Source: Amycolatopsis sp. GM8 | GTDB taxonomy: Bacteria; Actinomycetota; Actinomycetes; Mycobacteriales; Pseudonocardiaceae | Reading direction: 5' to 3' | Length of the DNA: 64,000 nt | Assembly (NCBI RefSeq): GCF_021653975.1 | Contig: NZ_JAJKFK010000003.1 | Location: forward strand, 124,001 to 188,000 | In this document: positions 26,087-42,415 of the stretch, piece by piece | Position numbering within the stretch: position 1 is the stretch's first letter | Layout: each line of letters opens with the position of its first letter | The notes under the pieces: model-generated | What the model was told of the DNA's origin: nothing | Seen by the model: the letters and a program-made list of their open reading frames with translations, nothing else | Databases searched by the model: none | Translations under genes and position numbers: made by a program

Positions 26087-26731
26087 GTGGTCCGTTCTCG
26101 ATCATTTGCCCTGTTCGGCGTCCTCCTCGTGACCATCGCTGGTGCCGTGGCGTGTTCACAGCCGGAAAACCCGACCGCGACCGAGGTGGTCACGGTGGTG
26201 GCGGTGGACAAGCTCGGCAATCCGATACCGGGCTACGAGGTCGAGGCTTCGGACGGGTTCGTCGACGGGTGCATGGCCAGCGCGGCCGGCGGAGAGGGAC
26301 TGGTGTCGTGCTACCCCACCGCGTCGGGCGCCGACGTGTGCTGGGTCGACAGCGACCGCGTGACCTTGTTGTGCGGCACCGATCCGTGGGAGAAGAAGCT
26401 CCACCGGATGACGTCCGACGAGGAGATCGGCGCCGTGACGCCGAAGCCGGTGCCGGACCCGTGGGGGCTCGTGCTCGCGGACGGCGCCCGCTGCCGGCTG
26501 CGCAACGGAGGCTCGTGGGGCAGCCGGGCCGACGGCTGGGTCGGCGCGTACTCATGCGACCGTGGCGAGGCCGAATACGTGCTGGTGAGCCAGGATCAGC
26601 CGGAAAGCGTCGCGGACCGGTCGGGTCCGGTGTGGCAGGTCCACATCGGAGCGCTCGGGAACGAGGGCGACCAGTTCCCCGCACCGGCCCCGATCGCCGT
26701 CGCCACGGCTTACTTCGCCGGTACGCCGTAA
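26087..26731 (+). CDS. predicted lipoprotein of unknown function
   Basis: A 214-aa protein with a lipoprotein signal peptide: VRSRSF, hydrophobic core ALFGVLLVTIAGAV, then lipobox AVAC at about residues 20-23. GTG 26087 puts a normal-length signal at the N-terminus; the longer open frame from 25982 would bury it. The mature part has pairs of Cys and a small Trp/Gly-rich beta-type domain (ADGARCRLRNGGSWGSRADGWVGAYSC). No family is recognised. It lies nine bases before the membrane-tethered trypsin-type protease on the same strand, so the two are probably co-expressed and may meet outside the cell membrane. Confidence 0.75.
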   Translation: MVRSRSFALFGVLLVTIAGAVACSQPENPTATEVVTVVAVDKLGNPIPGYEVEASDGFVDGCMASAAGGEGLVSCYPTASGADVCWVDSDRVTLLCGTDPWEKKLHRMTSDEEIGAVTPKPVPDPWGLVLADGARCRLRNGGSWGSRADGWVGAYSCDRGEAEYVLVSQDQPESVADRSGPVWQVHIGALGNEGDQFPAPAPIAVATAYFAGTP

Positions 26732-26740
26732 GGAAAGGCC

Positions 26741-28258
26741 ATGACCGAGAACACCCGCGTCCAGGGTTACCTGGGCCGCATCGTCACGCCCGGCGGCGAG
26801 GTGGCGGGCACCTGCTTCCAGATCGCGCCGGGGCTGCTGGTGACCGCCCGGCACGTGATCGCCGAGCTGCCGGGGCCGGGACTGGCGGTGGAGGCCCTTG
26901 ACGGCTCCGGAGCACGCGGCGACGTGCGGGTGGTGCGGGTCGACGAGGTGCACGATCTGGCCCTGTTGCAAGGAAATGTCCCGCTGCCCGATCACGTGCG
27001 CCGCTGGCTCGCGAGCGACGGCGTGCCGTTGAACACCGAGGTCGTCGTCACCGGGGTGAGCCGGGTGGAAGACGGGGACCGCGACTATCGGTACCTCGAC
27101 GCTCCGGGCACCTGGGCCGGCGGCACCACCCGCGACGGCGAAGTGGCGCTCGGCCGGTTCTCGTCCCGGGACGTCGTGCTGGGCATGAGTGGTGCGCCCG
27201 TCCGGCGGGTCGCCGACGACCGGGTGGTGGGCGTCGTGTCCGCCCGTTACAACAGCGCCGACGGGTGGCTGGCCGGCACGGTGTGGGTCGCGCGGACCGA
27301 AGATCTCCGGAGCCTGCTTGAGGATCTGCGATCGGAGCCCGACGCGCAGCCGGTCGAGTGGGACGAACTCGGCGAGCTGCTCGACCTGCCGCGCACCGCC
27401 GCGTTACCCGGGGGCGCCCGGGTGAAACCGCTGACCGCGCTGCTCGCGGTGGTGGCCGCCATCGTGATCGCGGTCGCCGTCACCCTGGTCGTCCTCAGGC
27501 CGGGCGGCGACGTGGCCGCACCGAGCACGCCGGTCCGGTCCTCGGCGAACGCCAGCCCGGTGCCCGCGGACCCGGCCACGCCGCCGGTCCTCGTCGAGAA
27601 CGTCACGGCGTTGCGCAGCAACGCGGGTGACGGGAGCTTTGTGTTGCCCGAGCCGCTGGTCATGAGCCCCGCCGAGCTGGCGCGGTTCAACCAGGAGGTC
27701 TCGCCCAGCACGCGGGACTGGTGGAGCTGGTACGGCGAACGCGGCGGCGCCGCCCTCGGCTCCGGGCTGACCACGATCACCCTGCGCGGCAACACTTCCG
27801 AAACGGTCCGGATCGTGGATCTGAAGGCGGTCAAGCAATGCGGGCCACCGTTCGACGGCACCTACTTCCAGGGCTACAGCCAGGGCACCGGCGACAACAT
27901 CACGATCGGCTTCGACCTCGACGAGAGCGACCCGTCCGCACAGGAGATGGCCTATACGAGCGGGCGCGGTCTCTTCCCCACCGGCGACCACTTCTTCGAC
28001 CGCAAGACGGTCACGCTCGCGCCGGGCGAGGTCGAGACGATCACCGTCGGCGCGTTCACCAGCACCAGGTCCTGCACCTTCGGCCTGCAGCTCGTGGTCG
28101 CGACCGCCGCGGGATCGTTCACCCAGGACATCACGGACGCGGGCAAGCCGTTCGTGGTCAGCGCGATGGCACCGCCCGCCGTGGCCGGCCAGCCGCTTTC
28201 GGGGTACCGCCAGGCCTACCGGCTCGAAGAGGGCCGGGAGTGGGTGCGGGCCGGGTAA
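26741..28258 (+). CDS. membrane-tethered trypsin-like serine protease with outer C-terminal domain
   Basis: A 505-aa protein. Residues about 8-195 form a trypsin-fold domain with the triad His38 (TARHVI), Asp72 (VHDLALLQ) and Ser150 (GMSGAPV). There is no signal peptide. A single membrane helix (about 231-252, LTALLAVVAAIVIAVAVTLVVL) follows a basic residue pair, so the protease part should be cytosolic and the 250-residue C-terminal part outside. The outer part is Ser/Thr-rich at first, then beta-rich with two Cys. This is the reverse of a secreted protease and suggests signalling across the membrane. One TTA Leu codon occurs at residue 222. It lies between a lipoprotein gene and an anchored propeller-like gene. 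Confidence 0.85.
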   Translation: MTENTRVQGYLGRIVTPGGEVAGTCFQIAPGLLVTARHVIAELPGPGLAVEALDGSGARGDVRVVRVDEVHDLALLQGNVPLPDHVRRWLASDGVPLNTEVVVTGVSRVEDGDRDYRYLDAPGTWAGGTTRDGEVALGRFSSRDVVLGMSGAPVRRVADDRVVGVVSARYNSADGWLAGTVWVARTEDLRSLLEDLRSEPDAQPVEWDELGELLDLPRTAALPGGARVKPLTALLAVVAAIVIAVAVTLVVLRPGGDVAAPSTPVRSSANASPVPADPATPPVLVENVTALRSNAGDGSFVLPEPLVMSPAELARFNQEVSPSTRDWWSWYGERGGAALGSGLTTITLRGNTSETVRIVDLKAVKQCGPPFDGTYFQGYSQGTGDNITIGFDLDESDPSAQEMAYTSGRGLFPTGDHFFDRKTVTLAPGEVETITVGAFTSTRSCTFGLQLVVATAAGSFTQDITDAGKPFVVSAMAPPAVAGQPLSGYRQAYRLEEGREWVRAG

Positions 28259-28277
28259 CTGACAAGGAAGGATCGGC

Positions 28278-29441
28278 GTGCGGATCAGGACACTGCTCGT
28301 GCTGGTGGCCGCGGTCGTGTTGCTCGCGACCGCGATCACGGTGGTCGTGGTGGCGAAACCCTTCGCGGGTTCGTCCACTGTGGACGGCAGCTACGCGTAC
28401 ACGACCGAGCGCGAACTGGTCGTCATGCGGGACCGCACGATCGTCAGCCGGGTCAACCGGATCTTCGACCTCGCCGATCCACTGTGGAACAAGGTGGTGT
28501 GGACCGACGACGGCAATCGCGTCGCGCTCCTCTCGGACACGCAGATCCGGCAGGAGGACCCTCAGCAGACCGAACTGATCTGGGTCGACGTGCGGAGCGG
28601 GGAGCAGCACCGCGTCCCGTGCCCCCGCTGCGACGACCTGGCCGCCGCGGGCGGATCGTCGCTGCTGCTCACGGCCGGGGACGCCTTCACCACACTCGAC
28701 CTCAACGACCCCGCGCACCGCACGCCGGTCGAACTCCCGCCGGTCGGCGACAGCTCGTTCCTGCGGGGGTTCCTCACCTCCGGTGGCGGCAGGCTGTTGA
28801 CCCGGCAGGGCATTTCGGGTCAGCGCAACACCTACTTCCAGCGGCTGGAACTGGTGCGGATCGGGAACCCCGAGGGCACCCTGGTGGGCCGGTTCGAGTC
28901 GAACGACTACCCGGTGGCGACAGCGGGTCCCAGCGGCGACGGCGTGTTCGCGGTGGCGTTCCGCCCCGACCCGGGCGAGTGCGTCGAGGACTTCCCGGTC
29001 TACCTCATCGATGACAAGGGGCACCCGGGCAAGACCGACCTGTCCGCGGCCTATCCGCCCGGGTACGTGCGAGGCACGCAGGGCGGGATCGAGGTCCACG
29101 ACCTGTGGTGGGGACGCGACGGCCGGCTGCGGGCCACGATGTCGTCGTGGACGTGTGACAACAGCCGGCGGGCCGAGAACGACAAGCAGGTGCCCGCCCG
29201 GCCGTCCGCGGTGTGGCGGCTGGACGGCAACCGCTGGGCGCCCGACGCGGGCGAGGGCGTGACGTCGGCCCGGGAGATCAGCGGGTCCGTCCGGATGGAA
29301 CTCGCCGTCCCCGACTGCATCGGCCCGCTACCGGCGCAGGCGGACGTGACCTATTGCCGTACCGGCACCCTGTACCGGGCCGAGGACGGACGGCGCGACG
29401 TGGTCGCCGACCACGTTCTGGCGCTGTCCGCCCCGCACTGA
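28278..29441 (+). CDS. membrane-anchored extracytoplasmic beta-propeller-like protein
   Basis: A 387-aa protein from GTG 28278 (AAGGAAGG upstream). An N-terminal anchor (residues 3-26, IRTLLVLVAAVVLLATAITVVVV) is followed by an outside domain with repeated beta-strand patterns such as VVWTDDGNRVALLSD, TELIWVDVRSG and PVATAGPSGDGVFAVAF. These resemble TolB/WD-type propeller blades, though no clear repeat signature allows a firm family call. It contains several Cys, including CPRC. It is 19 bases downstream of the trypsin gene, and its stop directly abuts the stop of the convergent trypco1-type gene. A role in sensing or presenting ligand to the protease is inference. Confidence 0.7.
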   Translation: MRIRTLLVLVAAVVLLATAITVVVVAKPFAGSSTVDGSYAYTTERELVVMRDRTIVSRVNRIFDLADPLWNKVVWTDDGNRVALLSDTQIRQEDPQQTELIWVDVRSGEQHRVPCPRCDDLAAAGGSSLLLTAGDAFTTLDLNDPAHRTPVELPPVGDSSFLRGFLTSGGGRLLTRQGISGQRNTYFQRLELVRIGNPEGTLVGRFESNDYPVATAGPSGDGVFAVAFRPDPGECVEDFPVYLIDDKGHPGKTDLSAAYPPGYVRGTQGGIEVHDLWWGRDGRLRATMSSWTCDNSRRAENDKQVPARPSAVWRLDGNRWAPDAGEGVTSAREISGSVRMELAVPDCIGPLPAQADVTYCRTGTLYRAEDGRRDVVADHVLALSAPH

Positions 29442-29765
29442 TCAGGCGCCGGTCTCGTAGGTGAGTTTGACCTTGACCGTCGCGTCGAGGGAACCGCCCG
29501 CGACGATGATGTTGCCCTTCGCCGAGAAGCCGAGCCCGAACTCGATCTCCAGCTTGTCCGGGGAGACCGCGTTTCCCAGCCGGCCGAACATCTCCGCGGT
29601 GGAGCGCGCCGTGTTCACGATGACCTCCTGCGCCGTGTCGAGCAGATCCACCGCTCGGGCGCCCGCGTCGCTCAACCTCGATGTCGGTTCCGAACCCGGT
29701 ACCGTCACCGTCTCCACGAGCACGTCGACCCCACCGAACCGCATCGGCTCCAGACGTCCTGCCAC
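29442..29765 (-). CDS. trypco1-type (CU044_2847 family) small protein
   Basis: A 107-aa soluble protein. It has the family pattern of an N-terminal strand region (VDVLVETVTV), a helix with DLLDTAQEVIVNTARSTAEMFGRLG, and the diagnostic end KLEIEFGLGFSAKGNIIVAGGSLDATVKVKLTYE, close to the 'eieFGlklsa..g.iia.....a.fkVtl.w' profile of trypsin-co-occurring domain 1. Proteins of this family are encoded beside trypsin-like or other proteases in predicted bacterial conflict systems. GTG 29765 follows GAGGGGAG; an ATG at 29804 and an internal ATG at 29744 are poorer. It faces the trypsin/propeller genes tail to tail, which fits its family name. Confidence 0.8.
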   Translation of the reverse strand: MAGRLEPMRFGGVDVLVETVTVPGSEPTSRLSDAGARAVDLLDTAQEVIVNTARSTAEMFGRLGNAVSPDKLEIEFGLGFSAKGNIIVAGGSLDATVKVKLTYETGA

Positions 29766-29891
29766 AGCACAGCTCCCCTCCTCGACTGCGGACAATCTAC
29801 GCACCCACCGCCGCTCGGCGGGCAGGCACCGTCGATGAGTTCTGCGCGCCGGGCGGGTCTATCCGGGCGACGGACTCTGGAGGGAGCGGGC

Positions 29892-30506: not shown

Positions 30507-30517
30507 CGGCGTCGGCC

Positions 30518-33142
30518 TCACGGGAACAGCGGCTGCGTGCCCGCACCGATGCAGACGAAACCCGCCGCTGCGGTTTCGTCGCCTGCCGACTGCTGGACTT
30601 CGGCGAGTGCGGTCGCCGGGGAGCGGCCGGCGGCTAGTCCTTTGTGGAACGCCGTCATGACCGGAGCTGTTGTCGCATCGGGGATCTGCAGCACGGAGGC
30701 GATCAGCTGCGCCGTCCCACGTGCGAGGAACGCCACCGCGAGGCCCATCAGCTCGTCGCCGGTATGCACGACGGGGCGGCCGCTGTCGCACGCGGCGAGC
30801 ACCAGGGTGTGCGGGACCCGCGGCAGCCGCTCCACGTCGTGGATCATCAGCGGACCGTCCGCGAGCGCGATGGCGGAGAACAACGGGTTTTCGGCGGACA
30901 GGTGGCCGTGCGCGGCGAGATGCACCAGCCTCGCGTCCGTCAGCACGCCACGGACCGCGTCGACCGAGGCCTCCGCACCGGTGAGCGCGACGCCACCGTG
31001 GATCGCCGCGACCTGCTCCGCCTCGCTGGCCGCGGCACGCAGCCGGGGACCCGCGACCGCCGCCACCGGGCCTTCGCCCACGTCCGGCGCGCGGTGGCGG
31101 GCCGCGTGCCAGAGCGTCGCGGATGGGGCGAGGGTGATGGGCCTCCCCCGGCAGGCCGGGAGCACGGACCACGGCAGGCTGTGCAACGGCCCGGTGGGCA
31201 CCACCACGAGCGGGCGGTCGGCCACTTCGGCGAGTGGCCTGAGCAGCAGCCCGTCGAGCCTCGCGGCGGCCGCCCGAAGCAACCCAGCGGCCGCCTCGCG
31301 CACCACCGCGGTCCCGGCCGACCTGCGCAGCGCGAAGGTCAGCCGCTCGACCAGATCCGCCGCTTCGGCCACCGTCGCGAGCCGGTGGCTGCGCACACAG
31401 CCGTCGACCACGGTCAGCGCGTGCAACTCGCCGTCGTGCCGCACGTATTCCACCAAGGCCCACGGCCCGAGCGCGGCGTGCAGCTCACCGGGCGTCACGG
31501 GGGCCGGCGACGCGCCGTCGGCTTGGCCGCCGAGGTACCGGCTGCGGTCCCGGATCTTCCGTTCGAGCGCCGCCTGCCGGGCCAGCAACGGCGCGGGCGC
31601 GGAGACCCGGTCGGCCAGGTCTCGCGTCACGGCGCGCAACTGGGCCAACAGCGCCGTCAGCTCCGGGTCGTCGGGCGGGCGGACCGGCGTGACCGGCAAC
31701 TGGCTGGCCCGTGCTCGTTCCGACCACTCCAGCGCCTTGTCGGTGCGGCCGGTGCGGAACGCCATCGTCAGCCCGAGCGCGGCCAGGTCGGCCCGATGCG
31801 CGGCGGCGTGCACGCGCAGGTCGGTGGCACCGAGGCCGGCGCCGTACTCGTCGAGGATCCGCAGGCCGGTGCGGGTGGCCGTCAGCGCGCCACGGAGGTC
31901 GCCGGCCGCCTGCCGTCGCAGGGCCCGCGCGTACCAGCCGCGGGCCCGGACCAGCGCAGGTCCCCTGGTCCGGGCCGCCGCCTGTTCGAGATACCCGCCG
32001 CCGCGGTCGGTGCGCGGTCCGCTCAGCTCGGCGGCGACGATCAGGGCGTCCAGCGCCGCGCCCGGCCAGCCCGTCGAGTCCAGCGTCGCCACCATCGTGT
32101 CGATGATCGCCGCCGGGACACGGGGGCGGCCGCCGCTCGCTTGCTGGGCGCGGAGCACGGAGAGCCGCGCCAGCTCGGTCCACTCGGGCCTGCCCTGGGC
32201 GCGGAGCCGTCGCAGCGCCGTACGAGCGTGACGTAGTGCCGCGTCCGGATCGCCGGCCAGCAGTCCGGCCTGCACCAACAGGAGCTGCACCTCGGGCACC
32301 TTCAGCGACCGGTTTTCCCGCCGGTAGGACTGGATCGCCTGCGCGGCGGCGACCTCGGCCTCGGCGGCCAGGCCCACCGACAGCAGCAGCTCGGCCCGGT
32401 CCTGGTGCAAGGTGCCCAGCTGGGCGCCGTGCGCGGCGATGATCTCCTCCGCCCGGCCGAGGTGGCGCAGCGCGGCCGGCACGTCCCCGCGCAGCGTCTC
32501 CATCAGGCCGAGGTTGTTGGCGATCAGGCCGATGGTCAGCGGACGGCCCAGCTGCCGGGCCAGGGTCTCGGCTTCGACCAGATCGCGTTCGGCGGCGGTG
32601 AACGCGTGGCGGTCGGAGTGCACGAGGGCCCGGTTGATCAGCATCCGCTGCACGCCCAGCAGGTCCCGATACCGCCGCAGCGCCCGCAGCGCCACGTCGA
32701 ACTCGGCCAGCGCGTCGTCGAGCCGGCCGATCACATGCAGCACGATGCCCCGTTGCGCGCGGGCCCTGGCCGCCTCGACGCCGTGCAGGTCAGGCAGGGC
32801 GGCGTCGATCTCGCGCAGCGCGGCCTGCGGCCGGCCGAGCTGAAGGACGGCGAACGCGAGCTTGTGCCGGGCCTGCGCGGTCAGCTCGGGCGAGCCCGCC
32901 CGAGCACCCCAGGTCATGGCCCGCCTCAGATGCCGGGCGGCGGCGCCGAGCTCGCCGACGTGCAGCAGCGCATGTCCCCACGCGCGTTCGGCGGTGGCGG
33001 CCGCCGCCGGATGGGTCGCACGGGCGGCGCGGCGCGCGGCCCGTTCCGCCAGCGGCAGCCCGGAGCCGGGGTCGCGGTCGACCGCCGCCTGCGCGGCGAG
33101 CGCGTCGGCCAGTACCGGGTCGTGGGGCGCGGGCTGTATCAC
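30518..33142 (-). CDS. TPR-repeat CHAT-domain protease
   Basis: An 874-aa protein. Residues about 20-560 are a helical TPR array (for example LHVGELGAAARHLRRAM, LIANNLGLMETLRGDVPAALRHLGRAEEI). A CHAT domain, a caspase-like cysteine peptidase, fills the last 250 residues. The dyad is His745 (LVHLAAHGHL) and Cys785 (VLAACDSG); ELMGLAVAFLARGTAQLIAS and the ending with CIGAGTQPLF are also typical. There is no export signal. GTG 33142 after GAGGA is chosen; the rest of the longer frame is a shadow. It is divergent from a subtilisin-type gene that heads a sigma-factor operon. The TPR array probably senses a partner; the target of cleavage is unknown. Confidence 0.92.
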   Translation of the reverse strand: MIQPAPHDPVLADALAAQAAVDRDPGSGLPLAERAARRAARATHPAAAATAERAWGHALLHVGELGAAARHLRRAMTWGARAGSPELTAQARHKLAFAVLQLGRPQAALREIDAALPDLHGVEAARARAQRGIVLHVIGRLDDALAEFDVALRALRRYRDLLGVQRMLINRALVHSDRHAFTAAERDLVEAETLARQLGRPLTIGLIANNLGLMETLRGDVPAALRHLGRAEEIIAAHGAQLGTLHQDRAELLLSVGLAAEAEVAAAQAIQSYRRENRSLKVPEVQLLLVQAGLLAGDPDAALRHARTALRRLRAQGRPEWTELARLSVLRAQQASGGRPRVPAAIIDTMVATLDSTGWPGAALDALIVAAELSGPRTDRGGGYLEQAAARTRGPALVRARGWYARALRRQAAGDLRGALTATRTGLRILDEYGAGLGATDLRVHAAAHRADLAALGLTMAFRTGRTDKALEWSERARASQLPVTPVRPPDDPELTALLAQLRAVTRDLADRVSAPAPLLARQAALERKIRDRSRYLGGQADGASPAPVTPGELHAALGPWALVEYVRHDGELHALTVVDGCVRSHRLATVAEAADLVERLTFALRRSAGTAVVREAAAGLLRAAAARLDGLLLRPLAEVADRPLVVVPTGPLHSLPWSVLPACRGRPITLAPSATLWHAARHRAPDVGEGPVAAVAGPRLRAAASEAEQVAAIHGGVALTGAEASVDAVRGVLTDARLVHLAAHGHLSAENPLFSAIALADGPLMIHDVERLPRVPHTLVLAACDSGRPVVHTGDELMGLAVAFLARGTAQLIASVLQIPDATTAPVMTAFHKGLAAGRSPATALAEVQQSAGDETAAAGFVCIGAGTQPLFP

Positions 33143-33221
33143 GGCGGGTCCTCGTGCTTCCGTCCCAGAAATACCTAGTTCGGGCGAGTACAGGACCCGT
33201 CCGGGAAAGGACACTGTTCCC

Positions 33222-34376
33222 ATGCTGATCCAAGTGGGGCCCGCTTTGCACCACAGTGACCAACTCGTCGTCGATCTGGGGCAGCTCGGGTTCGTGCTGG
33301 ACCTGCTCGACGAGCTGGGGGTCAAGCACTCCGCGCCCGGCCCCGGCGACCAGGACGAGCTGCTCGGGCTCGCCCGGCTGCGCGATCTCACCGAAGCCGA
33401 CGGGAGCGACCTCGAGGTGGGCGACGTGCTGGCCGTGCTGCGGCAGCAGGCGGCCGCCCGGCGGGACGGCTTCATCCCGCCGATGGGCCGCAACCGGGTG
33501 GTGGAGGCCGTGATCGGCGACGGTCACAAACCCATGGCGCTGGGCGAAGTCGGCTCCAGCGGGCACAAGCCGATGGCCGGTGCGGATCCGCAGCCCGTCG
33601 ACGCCTCCCAGCTGCCGGACGTGTCCATGATCGCCGCGGACGCCGGGAAGGGCGTGCACGTCGGCCTGGTCGACACCCCGGTCCCGCCGGTGCGGCCCGG
33701 CACGCCGGACAACCCGCTCCCCTACCGCGCCGGGCACGGTGAGTTCGTCGCGAGCCTCATCCGCCGGCAGGCGCCCGCAGCCGAGGTCACCACCGAAGGC
33801 GCGCTCGATCCCGAAACGGGGCGGGCTGATTCCTGGGACATCGCCCGGGCGATCCTGCGGCTGGTCACGACCGGCCAGCTGGACATCCTGAACCTGTCGC
33901 TCGGCTGCTACACGCTCGACGGGCCGCCACTGGTGATGACCCGCGCGATCGAACGGCTCGGCGACCGGGTGCTCGTGATCGCGGCGGCGGGCAACCACGG
34001 CGATTTCGCGCAGCTCGCCGGTGGCCGCACCGCCCGCTCCGGTTCCTGGCCCGCGGCGATCCCGCCGGTGATCGCGATCGGCGCGGCGGAGGACGACGGG
34101 ACCACCGCGTCGTTCAGCCCGAAACTGTCCTGGGTCAGCTGCACCGCGCCCGGCGTGGGCGTCGTCGGCTCCTACCTCACGGGCGAAGTCCGGACCAGCA
34201 CCGGGGACGTGCGTTTCGACGGACTGGCCCGGTGGAGCGGTACGTCGTTCGCGGCCGCCACGGTCTCCGGCGCGGTCGCCGCGCGTACGGTCCCCGGTTC
34301 GGTGACACCCCGGCAGGCATTGGCGGGCCTGCTGGCCGAAGGGACTCTGGTGCGACCGTTCGCCGAAGCGCGATGA
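33222..34376 (+). CDS. leaderless subtilisin-family (S8) serine protease
   Basis: A 384-aa protein with the S8 triad Asp151 (VGLVDTPV), His172 (RAGHGEFVASLI), oxyanion Asn258 (AAAGNHGD) and Ser342 (WSGTSFAAATVSG). No Sec or Tat signal is present; the N-terminal 140 residues are a helical region that could be a built-in inhibitory domain. Two copies of GHKPM (101-105, 114-118) sit just before the catalytic domain and may be a cleavage or hinge segment. The ATG follows AAAGGA at some distance. It is divergent from the CHAT gene and eight bases upstream of the sigma-factor gene, in an arrangement that recurs in actinobacteria. Confidence 0.9.
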   Translation: MLIQVGPALHHSDQLVVDLGQLGFVLDLLDELGVKHSAPGPGDQDELLGLARLRDLTEADGSDLEVGDVLAVLRQQAAARRDGFIPPMGRNRVVEAVIGDGHKPMALGEVGSSGHKPMAGADPQPVDASQLPDVSMIAADAGKGVHVGLVDTPVPPVRPGTPDNPLPYRAGHGEFVASLIRRQAPAAEVTTEGALDPETGRADSWDIARAILRLVTTGQLDILNLSLGCYTLDGPPLVMTRAIERLGDRVLVIAAAGNHGDFAQLAGGRTARSGSWPAAIPPVIAIGAAEDDGTTASFSPKLSWVSCTAPGVGVVGSYLTGEVRTSTGDVRFDGLARWSGTSFAAATVSGAVAARTVPGSVTPRQALAGLLAEGTLVRPFAEAR

Positions 34377-34383
34377 TGTGACC

Positions 34384-34938
34384 ATGCGTGATGATCCCGG
34401 GGTGGTGGACCTGGTGCTCCGTGCCCGGGACGGCGATGACAAGGCGTGGGACGGCATCGTCGAGCGGTACGCCCCGCTGATCTGGTCGGTGTGCCGCCGG
34501 TACGGGCTGGGCGGCAGCGACGCGGACGACATCGCGGGCAGTGTCTGGCTGCGCCTGGTCGAGCACCTGGCGACGCTGCAGGAACCGGCCGCGCTGGCGG
34601 GCTGGCTGGCGCGCGTCGCCCAGCGCGAATGCCTGCAGGCACTGCGAATCAGGAAGCGAACGGTGGCTGTGGACGATCCCGAACCCGACAGCGGCCCACT
34701 GGGGCTGGACGGTGACCTGCTGGTCGCGGAGCGGCGGCACGCGCTGCGCACCGCCTTCGCGGAGCTCCCGGTCCGCTGCCGGGAGCTGCTCGGCCTGCTC
34801 TTCGCCGAGCCCCCGGTGCCGTACCTGGAGATCGCGGCGGCGCTCGGCCTCCCGGTCGGCGCCATCGGGCCCAACCGGCGGCGCTGCCTGGACCGGCTGC
34901 GCCGCAGCCCGGTGCTGGCCGCCTTCGCGCCCGCGTGA
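34384..34938 (+). CDS. ECF-type sigma-70 factor
   Basis: A 184-aa sigma factor. Region 2 reads RDGDDKAWDGIVERYAPLIWSVCRRYGLGGSDADDIAGSVWLRLVEHLATLQEPAALAGWLARVAQREC. Region 4 reads HALRTAFAELPVRCRELLGLLFAEPPVPYLEIAAALGLPVGAIGPNRRRCLDRLRR. It directs RNA polymerase to specific promoters. There is no membrane anti-sigma factor next to it; the following small gene is the candidate regulator. GTG 34378 is an alternative start two codons upstream. It is in one operon with the S8 protease (8-base gap) and the beta-sandwich protein. Its targets may include the genes that follow. Confidence 0.92.
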   Translation: MRDDPGVVDLVLRARDGDDKAWDGIVERYAPLIWSVCRRYGLGGSDADDIAGSVWLRLVEHLATLQEPAALAGWLARVAQRECLQALRIRKRTVAVDDPEPDSGPLGLDGDLLVAERRHALRTAFAELPVRCRELLGLLFAEPPVPYLEIAAALGLPVGAIGPNRRRCLDRLRRSPVLAAFAPA

Positions 34939-34955
34939 CGGCAGAAAGGGACGGC

Positions 34956-35432
34956 ATGACGGACGAGCCGACGTGGTGGAGCGACGACGACCGCTTCGTT
35001 GCGGAGCTGGGCGCGGCCATGCGTGACGCGCAGGCGCCGGAGTCCTTCCTCCGCGCCGGGCGGGCCGCTTTCGCTTGGCGGACCGCCGATGCCGAGTTGG
35101 CCGAGCTGTCCTCTGATTCGTCGCTCGCGGAGGTGGAACCCGCGGGCCTGCGCGGCGGGCCGGACAGTCCCGGGCCGCGCGCGCTCGGTTTCACGGCCGG
35201 GAACCTGTCCGTCGAGGTCGAAATCCATCCCGACGCCGTCCGGGGCCAGCTGGTGCCGGCACAGTCCGGCACGGTGCTGGTCCGCGGCGAGGACGGGCCC
35301 GGCGCCGAGGTGCCGGTCGACGACGTCGGCTGGTTCGTGATCCGGCCGGTGCCGGCGGGCCGGTTCCGGCTGCACGTGCGGACGGCGGCCGGTGCGGCCG
35401 TGCTGACCGGCTGGATCGCCGCGCGCCGGTAG
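34956..35432 (+). CDS. small beta-sandwich protein co-occurring with CHAT/S8/sigma genes
   Basis: A 158-aa protein. The N-terminal third is helical, with SFLRAGRAAFAWRTADAELAELSSDS; the motif 'AFaWRt.DaELA.L..DS' is one I recognise from proteins encoded directly downstream of CHAT-linked sigma factors. The rest is a carboxypeptidase-regulatory-like beta-sandwich (LSVEVEIHPDAVRGQLVPAQSGTVLV... GWFVIRPVPAGRFRLHVRT). No membrane helix or signal is present. The position right after the sigma gene (17-base gap) makes a soluble anti-sigma role possible, but nothing in the sequence proves it. Confidence 0.7.
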   Translation: MTDEPTWWSDDDRFVAELGAAMRDAQAPESFLRAGRAAFAWRTADAELAELSSDSSLAEVEPAGLRGGPDSPGPRALGFTAGNLSVEVEIHPDAVRGQLVPAQSGTVLVRGEDGPGAEVPVDDVGWFVIRPVPAGRFRLHVRTAAGAAVLTGWIAARR

Positions 35433-35461
35433 TCCACACCGGACGCGGCGGCGTCCTTTCC

Positions 35462-35486
35462 GGAATTCGTTGTATCACCGGGTCTC
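35462..35486 (+). promoter_or_regulatory. weak ECF-type promoter candidate
   Basis: GGAATT at 35462-35467 and GTCTC at 35482-35486 have the rough shape of an ECF promoter (a GGAA-type -35 and a GTC-type -10 about 15 bases apart). They lie about 45 bases before the GTG of the M15-type gene and directly downstream of an operon that encodes an ECF sigma factor. The match is partial, so this is a suggestion only. Confidence 0.25.
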
Positions 35487-35530
35487 TTCGCTCCTCCGGT
35501 CTGTGCTGGCACAAATCTGGAGGAGGAACC

Positions 35531-36307
35531 GTGAGCGATCCCGCACGCGCCATGAGCAAGGAAGACGCCTACGCCGAACTGCTCGACCTGCAGTCGGGCG
35601 ACGTGATCCGGTTGGAGGGGGAAGGCAGCCCGGCCGGGGTGAGCCTGGACGGCTGGAACGGCAGCGACGCCGAGGCGGGCAATGTCGCCGGCGTCGTCAT
35701 CCGTTACTGGGCCTCGGGCAGCGCCCGGATCGGCAGACCGAGCGGTGGCGGCGCGCCCGACCGGCTCGACCCGCGCAACGCCCTCGCCCTGGTGCGGCTG
35801 TGCCAGTGGCTTAAGGACACCTACAACGCGGTCGAGCTGTACCACCTCGGCATCTCCGGCGGTGGTGTCGACCGGTCCGGCAGCCCGCGCACCGACTGCC
35901 ACGGGCAGGGCCGCGCCGTCGACTTCATGGGGATCAAGGCGGTCGCCGACGACGGCGAGGAATGGACGCTCACCGTCAACGACGACTGGGGCACGGTCTC
36001 CACGAAGGCCACGCCCGGCGGGGACTGGCCGTCCGACACCGGCTCGGCCACGTCCTACCGGCTGGACGACGAGGACGTGGACCCGTTCGTGCGCGATTTC
36101 TGGCGCTCCGTCTACGAATTCGTCGCCTCGGAATGGCAGGACCGCACCGACGGTCCCGACGGGGCGGACACCGCCACCGCCATCGGCGACCGCAGTTTCA
36201 TCATGCACCCCGACCACCCCGCGACCGCGCCGGGCACGGCCCACGGCCGCGAGGCCCACAAGAACCACCTCCACATGCAGATCGGCGTGACCGGAACGGA
36301 GTCCTGA
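35531..36307 (+). CDS. leaderless M15-type zinc peptidase-like protein
   Basis: A 258-aa protein. CHGQGRAVDFMGI (His124 and Asp131, seven apart) and KNHLHMQIG (His246, His248) reproduce the metal-site spacing of M15/VanY-MepA-type DD-peptidases (S-x-H-x-x-G-x-A-x-D and H-x-H). Cys replaces the usual Ser just before the first His. A long insertion (about 138-225) separates the motifs. Family members cleave D-Ala or cross-bridges in peptidoglycan, yet there is no signal peptide or membrane helix. GTG 35531 has a perfect AGGAGG. It heads a tight five-gene run. An inactive, binding-only role is possible. Confidence 0.65.
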   Translation: MSDPARAMSKEDAYAELLDLQSGDVIRLEGEGSPAGVSLDGWNGSDAEAGNVAGVVIRYWASGSARIGRPSGGGAPDRLDPRNALALVRLCQWLKDTYNAVELYHLGISGGGVDRSGSPRTDCHGQGRAVDFMGIKAVADDGEEWTLTVNDDWGTVSTKATPGGDWPSDTGSATSYRLDDEDVDPFVRDFWRSVYEFVASEWQDRTDGPDGADTATAIGDRSFIMHPDHPATAPGTAHGREAHKNHLHMQIGVTGTES

Positions 36308-36309
36308 CC

Positions 36310-36969
36310 ATGAAAACCCTTTCGGTGTGCGACATCCGGTTGCATCCCTCCACAGTGGACACCGACTTCGAAAAGGCGATGGTCGAAGAAGTGCTGCCGG
36401 GTGCCGGTGACGGCTACCCCGCGGGCGGGGTGTTCACGCGCGCCCTCTACCGCCGGACCGGCGAGGACTTCCCGCCCGGCTACCGGTGCCTCGTGTACTC
36501 GGACCGGCCCGGCGACAGCGGGTTTTTCGGGATGCGCAAGGCGATCGAGCCGCTCGGCGCGCACACGGCCGAACCCTGGCACCGCTCGCTGCGCGGCAGC
36601 GCGGACGAGGAGGCCGCGCTGGAACCCGTGCGTAACTCTGCCACCACCGGCCTGATCATGATCACCGTGCATCGCTCGCTGCGCCTGATCCCCGAGGACT
36701 TCGAGGCGCCGCTGGACGCCGCACTGCTGGCGGAGGTGCGGTTCAGGACCCGCGTGAACAACTCGATCGCCGCGTTCTGGACCCGCGACGACACCGCTGT
36801 CGAGGGCCGGATCGAGTACCTCGTGGTCGTGTTCGGCCAGTACATGACGGCGCCGCGGCTCAACACCGGTGTACTGCAGACGATCAGCGACACGAACGGT
36901 GTGATCGTCGGCTCGGATTCCTTCCGGCACGTGGGGACCGTGGCCGGCGACCCGGCCGGGAAGGCTTGA
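36310..36969 (+). CDS. hypothetical protein, unknown family
   Basis: A 219-aa soluble protein with no signal peptide and no recognised motif. The sequence looks like a mixed alpha/beta globular domain, with strands such as GLIMITVHRSL and RIEYLVVVFGQYM and a Gly/Asp-rich N-terminal part (PGAGDGYPAGGVF). It starts two bases after the stop of the M15-type gene and ends five bases before the hemopexin/lysozyme-type gene, so it is almost certainly co-translated with them. Codon use matches its neighbours. Confidence 0.75.
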   Translation: MKTLSVCDIRLHPSTVDTDFEKAMVEEVLPGAGDGYPAGGVFTRALYRRTGEDFPPGYRCLVYSDRPGDSGFFGMRKAIEPLGAHTAEPWHRSLRGSADEEAALEPVRNSATTGLIMITVHRSLRLIPEDFEAPLDAALLAEVRFRTRVNNSIAAFWTRDDTAVEGRIEYLVVVFGQYMTAPRLNTGVLQTISDTNGVIVGSDSFRHVGTVAGDPAGKA

Positions 36970-36974
36970 GCGCC

Positions 36975-38210
36975 ATGGAAAAGCTGTGTGGCTTCGTGGC
37001 GCCGTCCGGGGAGAAGGCGTACTTCTTCACCGGCGACCGCTACATCCGGTACGACGTGGAGAAGGACGGTATCGACGACGGCTATCCGCTGTCGATCGCG
37101 GCCCAATGGCCCGGGCTGTTCGAGTCCGATATCGACGCGGCCATGCCGTGGAGCGACGGGTCCGTGTTCTTCTTCAAGGCCGGCCAGTGCCTGTCCTATG
37201 ACATCGAGAACAATGCGGTGCTGGACGGACCGCGCTCGATCGCCGAGCGGTGGCCGGGCTTGTTCGAGTCCGGTATCGACGCGGCGGTGTTGTGGGGCAG
37301 CGGAAACGCGTACTTCTTCCGCGGTGAGCTGTACCAGCGGTTCGACGCCGAGACCGGTGCGATCGACCCAGAGGCACGCTCCATCGCCGAGGACTGGCCT
37401 GGCGCGTTCACCTCGGGGATCGAAACGGCGCTGTGGTGGCCGAGTGGCAATCCGTACTTCTTCTCCGGCGACCAGTACGCCCGGCACGATCCCGACAGCG
37501 GCGCCGTCGTGGAGGGCTACCCGAGGTCCATTTCGGACTGGAAGGGCCTGCCGATCGGCCCACTGGCGGCGCCAGGGCCGGCCGGATCCTCGCTGTCGGT
37601 ACGGGAGTTCTTCCCGCGGTTCAGCGAACCCTTCGAAGCCCGGCTGTCCTTTTTGTACCAGGACATCAAGGGACTGGTGACGACGGGCATCGGGAACCTG
37701 GTCGACTCGCCGGAGGAGGCGGCGGCGCTGCCGTTCGTGCACAAGGACACGCGTGAGCCCGCCACCCGCGAAGAGATCGTCGCGGAATGGCATCTGATCA
37801 AGGACACCCCGGGCCTGGCGCACGCGGGGGCCGGTGCGGCGAAACGGATCCACACCCTGGAGCTGCCCGAGTCGGCGATCGACGAGCTGGTCCACCAGCG
37901 TTTCGACCTGAACGAGACCCGGCTCGCCGCGTTCTTCCCCGGCTGGGCGGACTGGCCCGCCGACGCTCGGCTCGGCGCCCACAGCATCGCCTGGGCGGGA
38001 GCCTTCTTTCCCACCCGCTGGCCGGATTTCACGGCGGCGGCCAACTCCGGCGACTGGCTCAAAGCGGCGGACCAGTCCCACCTGAGCGAGGACGGCAACC
38101 TGGGTGTCGCGCCACGCAACAAGGCCAACCGCACGCTGTTCCAGAACGCGGCCGCGGTCGCGGCGCGCGGACTCGACCCGGCACTCATCTACTACCCGGC
38201 CGTCCTCTGA
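36975..38210 (+). CDS. hemopexin-repeat / T4-lysozyme-type (GH24-like) fusion protein
   Basis: A 411-aa protein in two parts. Residues 1-190 hold four hemopexin-like blades, each with 'aYFF.Gd.Y.ryd' and 'yP..Ia..WPGlFeS.IDAA' (at about 16, 63, 112 and 160), enough for one four-bladed propeller. Residues 210-411 look like phage T4 lysozyme: PFEARLSFLYQDIKGLVTTGIGNL gives Glu221, Asp230 and Thr236 at exactly the T4 spacing (11, 20, 26), followed by a helical domain with RNKANRTLFQ. This predicts a muramidase carried on a ligand-binding propeller. There is no signal peptide. ATG 36975 follows GGAAGG; a TTG three codons earlier is the alternative. Confidence 0.75.
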   Translation: MEKLCGFVAPSGEKAYFFTGDRYIRYDVEKDGIDDGYPLSIAAQWPGLFESDIDAAMPWSDGSVFFFKAGQCLSYDIENNAVLDGPRSIAERWPGLFESGIDAAVLWGSGNAYFFRGELYQRFDAETGAIDPEARSIAEDWPGAFTSGIETALWWPSGNPYFFSGDQYARHDPDSGAVVEGYPRSISDWKGLPIGPLAAPGPAGSSLSVREFFPRFSEPFEARLSFLYQDIKGLVTTGIGNLVDSPEEAAALPFVHKDTREPATREEIVAEWHLIKDTPGLAHAGAGAAKRIHTLELPESAIDELVHQRFDLNETRLAAFFPGWADWPADARLGAHSIAWAGAFFPTRWPDFTAAANSGDWLKAADQSHLSEDGNLGVAPRNKANRTLFQNAAAVAARGLDPALIYYPAVL

Positions 38211-38237
38211 CGGTCGCAGCACAGCAAGGAGCCACCG

Positions 38238-40313
38238 ATGGTGAACGCGGCAGGGCCGATCATGGCCGGCGGGTTCGAAACCCTGACTCTCAACGAGGCG
38301 GGCGTGGAATACTCGCTCGTTTTCTTCCCCGACAAGCACAACGACCAGCTGCAGGCCGAGGGCAAGGCGCCGGTCTTCTACTGGATGCCGAACGAGATGC
38401 GCCTGGCGCGCAAGCAGAACGGCGACTTCAAGCTCAGCTTCCTGCACTACCTCGGCGTCCAGGACGGCCAGACCAACCTCGCGGTGCCGCCGGGAACCTC
38501 ACGCGAGACCTCGGGCGGGATCCTGAGCTTCGCGATGACGGGCAAGCCGCCGGACGGCATCCTCACGGCCGCCCACAAGCAGATCCTCGAACTGAAACAG
38601 CAGGGCTCGCAGGACAGGTTTTCGCAGGTACTGCCCGGGATGGCGGAACGCGCCACGCCCGCGGACCTGCGGCCGGTGCCGATCCGCGCGTCGACGCTGC
38701 GGCTGATGATCACCGACGTGGACGGCCTCGGCGGCGGCAAGCCCGGCGACCCGTTCTTCGTCAACGCCCAGGGCGGCGGCTCCGGCAGCCTGGTGCCGAC
38801 GGCCGAGCACCCGTTCATCGTCAACCTCGGCACCCTGGCGGCGGCCACGGTGGAACAGGGGCTGCTGTCCACCCAGGTGCCCGTCGCGGTCAACGCCGAC
38901 CTGACGCTGCCGTTGTGGGCGCCGATCACCCGGCTGCACATGACCGCGCATTGGGACCGCGTGTTCGAGCACTTCACGGCCCAGGCGGGCGCGCAGTTCT
39001 GGTTCAGCAGCGCCGATCTGAAGGCGACCTGGAACACCCTGCGGATCAACGGCGACATCGAAATAGACCTGGAGATGGACCGCACGATCCCCGGGGCGGA
39101 CAACAAGGAGGCGATGGTCGAGAAGTACATCGACCTGCTGGTCGGGATGTGGCTGGACCAGGCGAAGCAGGTGATCTTCCAGCCGATGCCCGAGGTGGCC
39201 GACCCGGCGCCGCCGAAACCGGGCGGCCTGCTGAGCATTTTCGGCTGGGGGTTCGGCGGTGGCTTCAGCCTCAACTTCCGGCGGGACAAGGTGGAGATCG
39301 CGAACTCGTTCACCTTCAACGTGGACGAGGTGTACGCGCAGCCCAGCACCATGGGCGGCAACGTCGACGGCATCGCCGACCTGCTGACCGCGCATCCCGA
39401 GCTGCGCGACCGCTACCTGCGCAACCTCTACCTCGACAACTGGGACCGCAAGATCACCACGGTGTGCCGGCCGGTCGTGCAGTGGCCCGATCCGGCGCGC
39501 GGCATCACCGGCGACCCCGTCAGTTCCGCGTCCGTGCAGATCGGTTATCCCGACGTCGACGGCAAGATCGCCTGGGCACAGCACGAGTTCACGCCGCCGG
39601 AGCATCCCGCCGAGGTGGACGCGTCCGGCGTGCAGGGGGACGGCGCCGAGGTCGCCGAGACCACCGTCGAGAAGCCGGACAACTCGAGCGTTCTGGTCTA
39701 CGCCAACGGGTCCTCGAACGAGGTGTTCTTCGCCCGGCAGACGCAGAAGAAGGCCGAAGAGGTGCACAACGCGCCCGAGGGGTGGCGACCGGACCGTGTG
39801 TTCGTCCGCCGCACCATCCAGTTCAAGGAATCGCCCTCCGCGTTCGACGACAAGTTCACCCGGATCTTCATCGAGGCCAACGAAGTCGACCTCGACCCGG
39901 GTGAGTTCGGCACGCTCACCGACTCCCTCGACGTCGCGGTGCGCGCCGACAACGCCGGTGTGCTCGCGCTCTCCCCCATCGCGCTGAACAGCGTCCTCGA
40001 CGAGAAGAACCAGGTCGTGGAGGTGCATGTGCAGGCCGCGGGCAACGGACCGGACGGCGCCGAACGGCCGGTCGCCAAGTTCGTGTTCACGCTGGACGAC
40101 CAGGACAAGGAGCGGCGGTTCGCGCTCTACACCGGACAGCCGGGGAAACCGCCCGCGTACCGCTACCGGATCCGCGTCATCATCAAGGGCACCCTGTTCG
40201 CGCACGGCGACGAGTGGATCGGTCCGTGGCAGGACGCCGAGGGGGCCGGCGTGCTCAACGCGAGCGTGCCACTGAAGACCGATCCGGGCGTCACCGTCGT
40301 CGGGCCGGCCTGA
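38238..40313 (+). CDS. large hypothetical beta-rich protein
   Basis: A 691-aa protein with AAGGAG before its ATG. No signal peptide, no lipobox and no clear membrane helix. The N-terminal 100 residues contain EYSLVFFPDKHN and VFYWMPNEMRLARKQNGDFKLSFLHYLGVQ; the middle has WFSSADLKATWNTLRINGDIEIDLEMD and a Gly/Phe-rich stretch SIFGWGFGGGFSLNFRR; the C-terminus looks like Ig-type strands ending RYRIRVIIKGTLFAHGDEWIG. I do not recognise the family. It sits between the hemopexin/lysozyme fusion (27 bases) and another large unknown protein (five bases), so it belongs to the same operon. A structural or carrier role is possible. Confidence 0.8.
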   Translation: MVNAAGPIMAGGFETLTLNEAGVEYSLVFFPDKHNDQLQAEGKAPVFYWMPNEMRLARKQNGDFKLSFLHYLGVQDGQTNLAVPPGTSRETSGGILSFAMTGKPPDGILTAAHKQILELKQQGSQDRFSQVLPGMAERATPADLRPVPIRASTLRLMITDVDGLGGGKPGDPFFVNAQGGGSGSLVPTAEHPFIVNLGTLAAATVEQGLLSTQVPVAVNADLTLPLWAPITRLHMTAHWDRVFEHFTAQAGAQFWFSSADLKATWNTLRINGDIEIDLEMDRTIPGADNKEAMVEKYIDLLVGMWLDQAKQVIFQPMPEVADPAPPKPGGLLSIFGWGFGGGFSLNFRRDKVEIANSFTFNVDEVYAQPSTMGGNVDGIADLLTAHPELRDRYLRNLYLDNWDRKITTVCRPVVQWPDPARGITGDPVSSASVQIGYPDVDGKIAWAQHEFTPPEHPAEVDASGVQGDGAEVAETTVEKPDNSSVLVYANGSSNEVFFARQTQKKAEEVHNAPEGWRPDRVFVRRTIQFKESPSAFDDKFTRIFIEANEVDLDPGEFGTLTDSLDVAVRADNAGVLALSPIALNSVLDEKNQVVEVHVQAAGNGPDGAERPVAKFVFTLDDQDKERRFALYTGQPGKPPAYRYRIRVIIKGTLFAHGDEWIGPWQDAEGAGVLNASVPLKTDPGVTVVGPA

Positions 40314-40318
40314 TTTCC

Positions 40319-42415
40319 ATGAACACGCCAGGATTTCCGGCCGACGAGCCGGGCCCTCGCATCGAGGACGCCGACCACGGCGCGGCCCTGCTGCCCGATT
40401 CGCAGCTGGGCGCGCCGTGGTGGGCGCCCGCCCCCGAGGCGGTACCGGCGGCGGAGGGCACGTTCCGGTTCCTGTTCCGGGTCACCGGTCACGACGACGA
40501 CGGGTCGCCCGCGATCGCCGCCACCGTGACGACCGTGTTGCGTTTCCCGCCGCCGGACCCGCCGGACGCGCGGCCGGTCGAGCGGACGAGTTTGGCCGTG
40601 CGCCTGCGGATCCCGTTCGTGGACGCGGAAACCGGCGCTCCGACGGCGACCGAACTGCCGGCCGAGGCGACGGAACGGGACGGCCTCGTGCACTGCCGCG
40701 CGGAGATCCGCGGGGCGGTGGCCCGCGCGGCGTACGGGGCGCTCAGCGCGCCGGGGTTCCAGCCCGGCGACGGCGCGGGGCTGGTGGTCGAAACGTCGTT
40801 CACGGCCGTCCGGCAGACCGCGGTCGCGTGGGCCGGCGACGTGCTGGAGGGAGTGGAGATCGACCACGACGCGCTCGACCTCGCGGTGCTGGTGCCCGCG
40901 CGGGGGTGGCCGTGGGAAGAGCCGCCGCGGGAAGAACACCCGGTGCCGGAAGAGCATCCGGAGTGGGGTGAGGTGAGCACATCCCAGATCACGCTTCCCG
41001 ATATCAGCGGGCAGATCGTGCTCCGGTCCGCCGACGTGGCCGAGGTCGCGTCACCGGTCCTGGAGCAGGAGTTCGTCGTGCCGGGCCTGCTGGATCTGCC
41101 ACCCGATGAGCAGGAGCACCCGCTGACGTTCCCGCCCCTGCACCCCTCGCCGCCGGTGGCCGACCTGGGCGTGACGGTGTCCCGGCAGCAGCGCGTGCCG
41201 CTGCTCGTGCCGTGCCGGGACCACCCGGAGCTGTACCTGCAGGACGTGGAGCCGGGGGCGGCGCCCGAGGTGGTCGGGTGCCAGGAGGCCTTCCAGCTCG
41301 GCCGCGCGCCGGCCCAGCGGTTCGCGCCGGCGCCGCGGCTGGACCGCGAACACCGCTACACGGTGTGGGAATCGCTCCAGCAGCCGGCCACGTATCTCGT
41401 GGTGCCCGCGCACTACCGCGTGGGCCGCCACCCCACCGGCCGGCCCGAGTTCGAGTGGCTGCAGCTGTTCGACGCGACGGTCGACGCCGGGTTGCCGTGC
41501 CTGCTGCAGGCCCGCTGCGTCCCGGACCTGACCGTGGCCGAGCTCGCCGAACTCCAGGTCCAGCTTCGCGCCGAGGAAGGCGGGCGCGATGTGCGGGTCC
41601 TGCTGCCGACGTCGCCGACGGTGGGGTCGACCGGGGTGAGCGTCCGGTCCAGCACGCTCAGTGGTGCGCCGCGGGCGGTGCTGGACGACGACGCGGTGCG
41701 CGTCGCGCTGCGGGTGGACTACGAGGACGCGGTGGTGATCGTCAGCCAGCTGCGCGGCGGGGACGCGGTCGCGCAGGTCGCCTTTGAGACCGGTGATCCC
41801 CGGCTCGCCCTCGCCACCACGCTGCACCTGGATGTCGCCGACCTCGCGGGTCCGTACCCGGACGGACCGGTCCGGACCACCGCGACCGGGCTGCGCAACG
41901 ACGCCGACACGGCGGCGACGGTGACGGGGCTGCGGACGCGGGCCGTGCTGGGCGGCTTCGGGGAACGGATCCCGCTGGACCCGCCGGTGCGCGTGCCCGC
42001 CCACGGCGAGGCCGCGCTCGCAGTACCCGCCGCGGACGCGGTGGCCGAAGCGCGGCTCGATCCGGCCGATCCCGCTCAGCTAGTGGTGCGCAACGTCTAT
42101 TTGGAGAACCTGCACACCGTGGTCCTGGTCCGGCGGGACGTCGACCTGCGCGCGGTGGGGGTCGTCAGCGCGGAACTCAGGTTCGCCGTGTCGGGGATCG
42201 AGGTCGCGCGGGCGATCCTGCCGGCCGACACGCCGGCGCTGGAGGTCACCTTGGTGCAGCCGCTGGTCGCGGACCGCTCGACGTTCGACCGGAAGGTCGC
42301 CGTCTCGGTGAGCTTCACGGGCATCGACGGCGGCACCCGCCCGGCCCCGGGCCCCGCGGTCGTCGACCTCTCGACCGGCGCGGTCGTCCGGCTCTCCCAG
42401 CTGGTCGGCGCCTGA
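40319..42415 (+). CDS. large hypothetical protein, last gene of the run
   Basis: A 698-aa acidic protein rich in Ala, Val and Pro, with no signal peptide or membrane segment. The first 270 residues look like strand-rich modules (TFRFLFRVTGHDDDGSPAIAATVTTVLRF). The middle contains VSRQQRVPLLVPCRDHPELYLQD and YTVWESLQQPATYLVVPAHYRVGR, and the C-terminus has repeated 'TLHLDVADL... TATGLRND... VTGLRTRAVLG' strands. No family is recognised. Size and layout resemble the preceding 691-aa product, but a direct relation is not obvious by eye. A perfect inverted repeat five bases after the stop may end the transcript. Confidence 0.8.
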   Translation: MNTPGFPADEPGPRIEDADHGAALLPDSQLGAPWWAPAPEAVPAAEGTFRFLFRVTGHDDDGSPAIAATVTTVLRFPPPDPPDARPVERTSLAVRLRIPFVDAETGAPTATELPAEATERDGLVHCRAEIRGAVARAAYGALSAPGFQPGDGAGLVVETSFTAVRQTAVAWAGDVLEGVEIDHDALDLAVLVPARGWPWEEPPREEHPVPEEHPEWGEVSTSQITLPDISGQIVLRSADVAEVASPVLEQEFVVPGLLDLPPDEQEHPLTFPPLHPSPPVADLGVTVSRQQRVPLLVPCRDHPELYLQDVEPGAAPEVVGCQEAFQLGRAPAQRFAPAPRLDREHRYTVWESLQQPATYLVVPAHYRVGRHPTGRPEFEWLQLFDATVDAGLPCLLQARCVPDLTVAELAELQVQLRAEEGGRDVRVLLPTSPTVGSTGVSVRSSTLSGAPRAVLDDDAVRVALRVDYEDAVVIVSQLRGGDAVAQVAFETGDPRLALATTLHLDVADLAGPYPDGPVRTTATGLRNDADTAATVTGLRTRAVLGGFGERIPLDPPVRVPAHGEAALAVPAADAVAEARLDPADPAQLVVRNVYLENLHTVVLVRRDVDLRAVGVVSAELRFAVSGIEVARAILPADTPALEVTLVQPLVADRSTFDRKVAVSVSFTGIDGGTRPAPGPAVVDLSTGAVVRLSQLVGA

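Follow-up and report, generated by a model that had tools for sequence, protein, structure and literature searches.

A conserved nine-gene unit in Amycolatopsis joins an ECF54-like sigma factor module to an operon of putative wall hydrolases

The window that we analyzed is a stretch of 64,000 nucleotides from Amycolatopsis sp. GM8 (contig NZ_JAJKFK010000003.1, positions 124,001 to 188,000; positions below are counted from its first letter), within which a sequence-only reading, made without database searches, had grouped about 16 kb as one protease-rich cluster. This cluster is two separate things and not one system: a run of four genes for a lipoprotein-like protein, a trypsin, a protein of 387 amino acids (aa) and a Trypco1 protein, and a unit of nine genes (Table 1). 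The nine encode, in order, a TPR-CHAT protease (minus strand), a subtilisin-type (S8) protease, an extracytoplasmic function (ECF) sigma factor and a 165-aa protein, which we call the control half, and then the five products of the output operon: an M15-like peptidase, a 219-aa protein, a hemopexin-lysozyme protein and two proteins of 691 and 698 aa. We found the same nine genes in identical order in all seven Microbispora loci, with 47-84% protein identity to those of the window. The unit is thus real and conserved, and is a variant of a described sigma factor module with an attached output operon.

To obtain the Microbispora loci, we used the 691-aa protein to scan a collection of 84,980 species genomes, with patterns that catch close relatives only; all seven loci recovered were from Microbispora, a distantly related group of soil bacteria. 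In this count L095 (G667), which shares DNA with L014, is taken as the same Microbispora; L095 is likewise excluded from the 59 other loci and from the 40-locus element count below, and is included in the count of sigma factor genes adjoining the 165-aa gene. The sequence-only reading had named, as a possible support for its cluster, that the 691-aa, 698-aa and hemopexin proteins travel with the CHAT, S8 and sigma factor genes, as they do in 7/7 Microbispora loci; the trypsin run stands apart from them. The short gene junctions on which it had remarked also hold.

Table 1. Features of the locus, in window positions
Feature	Position	Strand	Profile match or identity	Remark
Lipoprotein-like/trypsin/387-aa/Trypco1 run	26072-29804			Separate from the nine-gene unit
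Trypsin_2 and Trypco1 neighbors	26741-29804
387-aa protein	28278-29441			No family named; absent from the sequence-only reading's list
Nine-gene unit	30518-42415			TPR-CHAT to 698-aa protein
TPR-CHAT protease	30518..33142	-	PF12770, E 3.6e-36	About 874 aa
First bipartite site	33135..33160	+		TGTATCA-N16-TTC; upstream of the operon of S8, sigma factor and 165-aa genes; candidate promoter of the module's own sigma factor
S8 (subtilisin) protease	33222..34376	+	PF00082, E 1.9e-17	Leaderless; start uncertain
ECF sigma factor	34378..34938	+	PF04542, E 1.1e-13	ECF54-like by context
165-aa protein	34935..35432	+		Soluble; putative sigma inhibitor
Second bipartite site	35471..35496	+		TGTATCA-N16-CTC; before the five-gene output operon
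M15-like metallopeptidase	35531..36307	+	81-84% to Microbispora	Leaderless; motif level
219-aa protein	36310..36969	+	47-50% to Microbispora	Least conserved member
Hemopexin propeller with T4-lysozyme-like domain	36966..38210	+	PF00045, E 4.3e-35, four stretches	Leaderless
691-aa protein	38238..40313	+	74-76% to Microbispora	Unknown family
698-aa protein	40319..42415	+	61-75% to Microbispora over best-matching part	Unknown family

We consider the two plus-strand operons of the unit to be linked because a promoter-like element is shared before both. This bipartite element has the consensus TGTATCA-N15-17-nTC. When both intergenic regions were aligned with those of Microbispora, we found TGTATCAC shared before the S8 gene and before the M15-like gene, and each of the seven Microbispora loci has two copies, confined to the corresponding two places within the 22 kb of the locus. 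In the window, 0.29 occurrences of this string would be expected. The shorter TGTATC occurs only twice in the window, at these two intergenic places (shuffles give about 5). Furthermore, 17 of 40 other loci (39 loci from the class and that of Nonomuraea) have TGTATCA no more than 3.5 kb ahead of the 165-aa gene, and all 17 make up the full element, with TC at a fitting distance; in controls, we observed the element in 1/40 loci on the reverse strand, and in a mean of 0.15 and at most 2 loci in 60 shuffles. TGTATC alone is present in 28 of the 40 (shuffle mean 3.6, at most 8). We read the element as a candidate promoter of the module's own sigma factor that would be repeated before the output operon. 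A literature search returned no description of the element or of the five output genes, within a reach that did not extend to element listings for ECF54 elsewhere.

We read three of the 20 loci from the window's own family closely, two of them being L121 and L119. In L121 (6423-9734), beside an ECF54-type module, the full element precedes genes for a lipoprotein-like protein, LodA (PF17990, 1.7e-59) and an FAD oxidase. In L119 (14713-16039), the full element lies just past the CHAT gene and before a gene whose product has an N-terminal hydrophobic stretch and a weak, sub-threshold match to Double-GTPase 2. Arrangements of this kind suggest, as a lead only, that output cassettes may be exchangeable.

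Profile matches identify CHAT, S8 and trypsin, three of the four protease families listed in the sequence-only reading; the fourth, M15, is recognized by motif only. In the TPR-CHAT protein, which over its best matches is 66-72% identical to the CHAT gene of each of the seven Microbispora loci, the catalytic-type residues H745 and C785 are both present; its start is uncertain, and the codon chosen overlaps the bipartite site at 33135. The S8 protease has all of D151, H172 and S342. Ahead of its catalytic domain lie tandem GHKPM repeats, two in the window and up to four in Microbispora (L010-L016), which could be a cleavage site, a docking peptide or a metal site. We considered these repeats as a hallmark of the module and rejected them as such, since they are confined to the window and Microbispora loci: among 67 other loci they occur in the seven Microbispora only, and among 246 genomes of the class in the window's and one Microbispora only. 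The sigma factor, confirmed as an ECF sigma factor by profile, scores 67.5 bits against TIGR02937 (cut-off 42.9), and its region 4 matches PF04545 at E 1.1e-4 (22.1 bits, slightly below the cut-off of 24.1); with regions 2 and 4 it fits what is expected of the ECF sigma factor in an ECF54 module, and it is 73-74% identical to its Microbispora counterparts. The 165-aa protein, which the sequence-only reading did not list, proves central. Its one profile match is weak (PF13620, carboxypeptidase regulatory-like, E 0.08), and the best match of its own profile against the PDB was unrelated (E 0.31).

Using the 165-aa protein as a marker, we found that the control half occurs widely and has in part been described already. 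The marker is present in 55 of 246 genomes of the class and 42 of 200 of the family, in each case counting the window's own, and among 11 listed members of the genus in the window's genome only. We fetched 40 of the 58 marker places in the class and 20 of 52 in the family, as stretches of 11-20 kb, some of them ended by contig edges. A sigma factor gene adjoins the 165-aa gene in 38 of the 40 fetched class loci, and a CHAT gene starts within 6 kb of 35 of the 58 class places. Similarly, among the 20 family loci, S8 and sigma factor genes lie ahead of the 165-aa gene in 17 and a minus-strand CHAT motif is found in 15. All 54 marker genomes examined have a CHAT gene, but this co-occurrence is weak evidence because 44 of 61 genomes chosen for lacking the marker have one as well. 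The published ECF54 context contains carboxypeptidase, subtilase and CHAT proteins around an ECF sigma factor, with proteolytic control proposed, in the accessible part of that description (PMC8999054); CHAT and subtilase genes are likewise present in the window, and the same part of the description has no attached lytic operon or promoter element. We therefore assign the module to ECF54 provisionally and by context, the sigma factor being placed by its neighbors and not by a group profile. The suggestion that the system was undescribed holds in part only, the context of the control half being described for ECF54.

In contrast to the control half, none of the five output genes had a match in the fetched stretches of any of the 59 other marker loci (39 class, 20 family). 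The sequence-only reading had named independent occurrence of the five-gene run and the CHAT/S8/sigma set as speaking against its cluster; for the cluster as a whole this is what we observed, with the trypsin run standing alone and the control half lacking the lytic half in 59/59 loci, while in Microbispora the two halves stay together. If the two operons were neighbors by chance, or by a single transfer event, with no functional link, such solitary control halves would be expected, and the failure of a stricter form of the element, discussed below, would also fit. However, the order is conserved in 7/7 loci at 47-84% protein identity, and a promoter-like element is repeated before both operons; we consider a chance association very unlikely.

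The relationships of the control genes point to movement of the unit between families. FastTree trees built from the fetched sequences place the sigma factor and 165-aa protein of the window with those of Microbispora (support 0.992 and 0.998), in preference to the 20 loci sampled from the window's own family. Because of this placement, we think that the entire nine-gene unit was probably transferred between families.

The output operon combines two putative wall hydrolases with three proteins of no recognized family. The M15-like protein matches no Pfam or NCBIfam family and has one weak PHROG match, to a phage base spike protein (E 0.016); its H-x6-D and H-x-H motifs, which we take to be the M15 zinc-ligand pattern, are invariant in 6/6 aligned sequences. 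Of the reported fusion of a T4-lysozyme-type enzyme to a hemopexin propeller, the propeller is supported by profile, whereas the lysozyme part rests on a motif and a weak fold match. In the latter, E224-x8-D233-x5-T239 is invariant in 8/8 sequences, with a spacing that we presume to be that of the catalytic residues of T4 lysozyme; no Pfam family matches at E up to 1, and a fold search placed pesticin and phage endolysins on top at weak scores (best E 0.88; TM-scores 0.16-0.26 at ranks 1-6). The domain has the motif spacing of T4-type endolysins and pesticin, and a weak, tentative fold match to them. Unlike them, it is joined to a hemopexin propeller in a protein that has no leader, has no profile match, and is encoded next to a putative sigma switch. 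None of the nine proteins of the unit has a strong hydrophobic segment (highest 19-residue mean 1.56 in a simple hydropathy scan).

As had been reported, the 219-, 691- and 698-aa proteins are of unknown family, no match in the libraries searched having an E-value below 0.3 (for the 698-aa protein, libraries other than NCBIfam). We also considered a phage origin for the 691-aa protein and rejected it: a search of 50,697 phage records (E up to 0.01) gave no match, and none was confirmed in viral contigs. Homology between the 691- and 698-aa proteins was likewise rejected, as profile comparison gave no match, although both alignments are shallow. The predicted structure of the 691-aa protein was unusable (pLDDT 34).

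Our preferred explanation, to which we give slightly less than an even chance, is that the unit is a sigma switch of the ECF54 kind, gated by proteases and shared horizontally, that has acquired an output operon of its own and drives leaderless wall hydrolases. Specifically, the TPR part of the CHAT protein would sense an intracellular signal, and CHAT, S8 or both would then cleave the 165-aa protein, a putative sigma inhibitor and functional counterpart of Csx30; alternatively, proteolysis of the sigma factor itself would stop. The sigma factor would then raise expression of its own operon and of the five-gene operon, and the M15-like peptidase and hemopexin-lysozyme protein would cut peptidoglycan, the 691- and 698-aa proteins acting as their partners. 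Since the hydrolases have no leader, the most likely outcome would be lysis from within: the producing cell or compartment would undergo programmed lysis, perhaps as a defense against phage, and any release of hydrolases to neighbors would be a side effect.

Several results weigh against this explanation. With respect to the element, shuffling the window 100 times gave two or more copies of TGTATCAC in 4 cases, the form of the full element was taken from the same loci in which it was later counted, such that the 17/40 is not independent, and a stricter form of the first site fails to match the second and matches one place only. In the 20 own-family loci, we found exact TGTATCA before the control operon in 2, elsewhere in 2 and not at all in 16, counts that slightly lowered our confidence. 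We also considered a genome-wide regulon and found no support for one: over the window's own genome, the loose element gave 11 occurrences compared to 15 for a reversed control, with no enrichment. With respect to the proteins, we detected no anti-sigma kinship for the 165-aa protein, and the marker lacks a nearby CHAT gene in 14 of 39 fetched loci assessed, 2 of the 14 with the element. The T4-lysozyme-like and M15-like labels depend on the motifs and weak fold match given above; PADLOC matched none of the five output proteins and in the unit only S8 (subtilase model, 1.1e-8), and no holin or export gene was recognized in the nine-gene unit.

If the same switch served cell-wall remodeling in growth or development (turnover of spore or hypha walls), no killing would be involved. 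In actinomycetes, wall hydrolases are commonly under the control of sigma factors; many genomes of the class (55/246) have the control half, and no defense gene was recognized beside it among the genes scanned. On the other hand, the output half is seldom found, with the 691-aa protein in only 3 of 200 genomes of the family, two of them having distant relatives; the 165-aa marker is confined to the window's genome among the listed genus members; and leaderless enzymes are a poor fit to routine wall turnover. We consider remodeling unlikely. The five genes might instead be an antagonistic payload, released or injected against competitors or hosts, with hemopexin as adhesin, the lysozyme and peptidase as toxins and the 691/698 pair as carrier. 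Hemopexin propellers are binding domains, and LodA-type oxidases, such as that encoded behind the element in L121, are known as antibacterial. The lack of a leader, of a recognized immunity gene and of a recognized injection-machine gene in the unit (the search for one covered the unit and not the rest of the genome) makes a payload quite unlikely in our estimation.

If the preferred explanation of a protease-gated switch is correct, the ECF54-type module, whose control is so far predicted in the accessible part of its description, would gain a defined local target operon and a testable element. It would also suggest that the control of sigma factors by caspase-like proteases is perhaps not confined to CRISPR. 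Should the output be lysis, the unit would represent an actinomycete system for cell death gated by transcription, and the 691 and 698 families, also found ahead of a caspase in Deinococcus, would become candidates for death or lysis proteins.

The direct precedents, from the portions of the literature available, are the ECF54 context and the association of a caspase with a TPR protein and an ECF sigma factor described for the EACC2 kind (PMC8195603). In the available portion of that account the caspase goes with EACC2 and a DUF1822 TPR protein; the window unit differs in having TPR-CHAT, S8 and 165-aa proteins (EACC2 was not searched for). The nearest proven precedent for the proposed mechanism is CASP of Type III-E CRISPR. 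There, in the accessible text, Csx30 inhibits the sigma factor and is cut by the TPR-CHAT protein Csx29, and sites for CASP-sigma lie within its own locus (PMC10028731), as sites for the sigma factor of the window unit putatively do in its module's promoters. We do not claim membership of CASP for the unit. Its CHAT protein scores 12.3 bits against Csx29 (NF041237, cut-off 300) and only E 0.17-0.8 against Csx29 chains, and the unit has the added S8 protease. No Cas gene was found among the window proteins scanned generally; the genome was not searched for Cas7-11 or a CRISPR array. A bolder version of the proposal is that the unit is a CRISPR-free counterpart of CASP, in which CHAT would cut the sigma inhibitor and trigger programmed lysis by leaderless peptidoglycan hydrolases, amounting to bacterial cell death gated by transcription, with swappable output cassettes behind one sigma element (wall hydrolases and 691/698 here, LodA and FAD oxidase in L121, a membrane GTPase-like gene in L119); taken as a whole, we find this version rather unlikely.

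Relatives of the 691/698 pair occur outside the unit. On a Deinococcus taeanensis plasmid (L023, 14989-22418), we found, one after the other, a 691-like gene (32.6% identity), an adjoining 698-like gene (E 6.9e-31) and a gene for a fusion of a caspase with a peptidoglycan-binding domain. Thus, in two cases from two phyla, the pair is near a caspase-type protease and wall-related domains. The sigma factor, S8 and 165-aa profiles had no match in the 32 kb of this plasmid that was read. A BTAD regulator precedes the relatives there, and an annotated CHAT-TPR gene lies 13 kb away. In addition, 691-like genes are found in tandem in two genomes, G001 and G254; in G001 (L017, 9960-15511), they stand behind two genes whose products, about 264 and 276 aa long, have a near-identical stretch near their starts.

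The trypsin run has its own history. As the sequence-only reading had proposed, the trypsin (PF13365, E 7.8e-9) and Trypco1 (PF19493, E 3.6e-15) proteins are recognized by profile. The trypsin has a hydrophobic segment, the 387-aa protein a hydrophobic N-terminus, and Trypco1 is on the opposite strand. The pairing of trypsin with Trypco1 has been described for predicted conflict systems, in the accessible part of the account (PMC7159879), a point in favor of the view that the whole 16 kb is one conflict system; no MoxR/vWA/VMAP core gene was found among the window proteins scanned generally, no dedicated search having been made. However, in a congener (G807) the lipoprotein-like, trypsin, 387-aa and Trypco1 genes stand together (L139, 5983-9735), 74-93% identical to those of the window, and none of the CHAT-to-698 genes was found in the 34 kb read. 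Moreover, none of the four genes of the run is present in 54 kb around the unit in one Microbispora contig, nor in the six other Microbispora loci, which extend only 1.5-1.9 kb beyond CHAT on that side, and no TGTATC element was found at the run. The evidence largely contradicts a single system, which we consider barely credible; the trypsin and Trypco1 of the described systems are both present, in a run separate from the nine-gene unit. The 387-aa protein is present in 2 of 19 genomes of the genus, the window's included.

Two further genes complete the picture. The RibD-type gene (RibD_C, E 4.1e-20), suspected of being a passenger, is taken as one here: we found no counterpart in the congener's 34 kb and, in one Microbispora locus, a partial match of 40% about 3.8 kb beyond the unit. 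Past the unit in the window, a 1147-aa protein (43499-46942) joins an NAGPA phosphodiester glycosidase domain to a calcineurin-like phosphoesterase domain.

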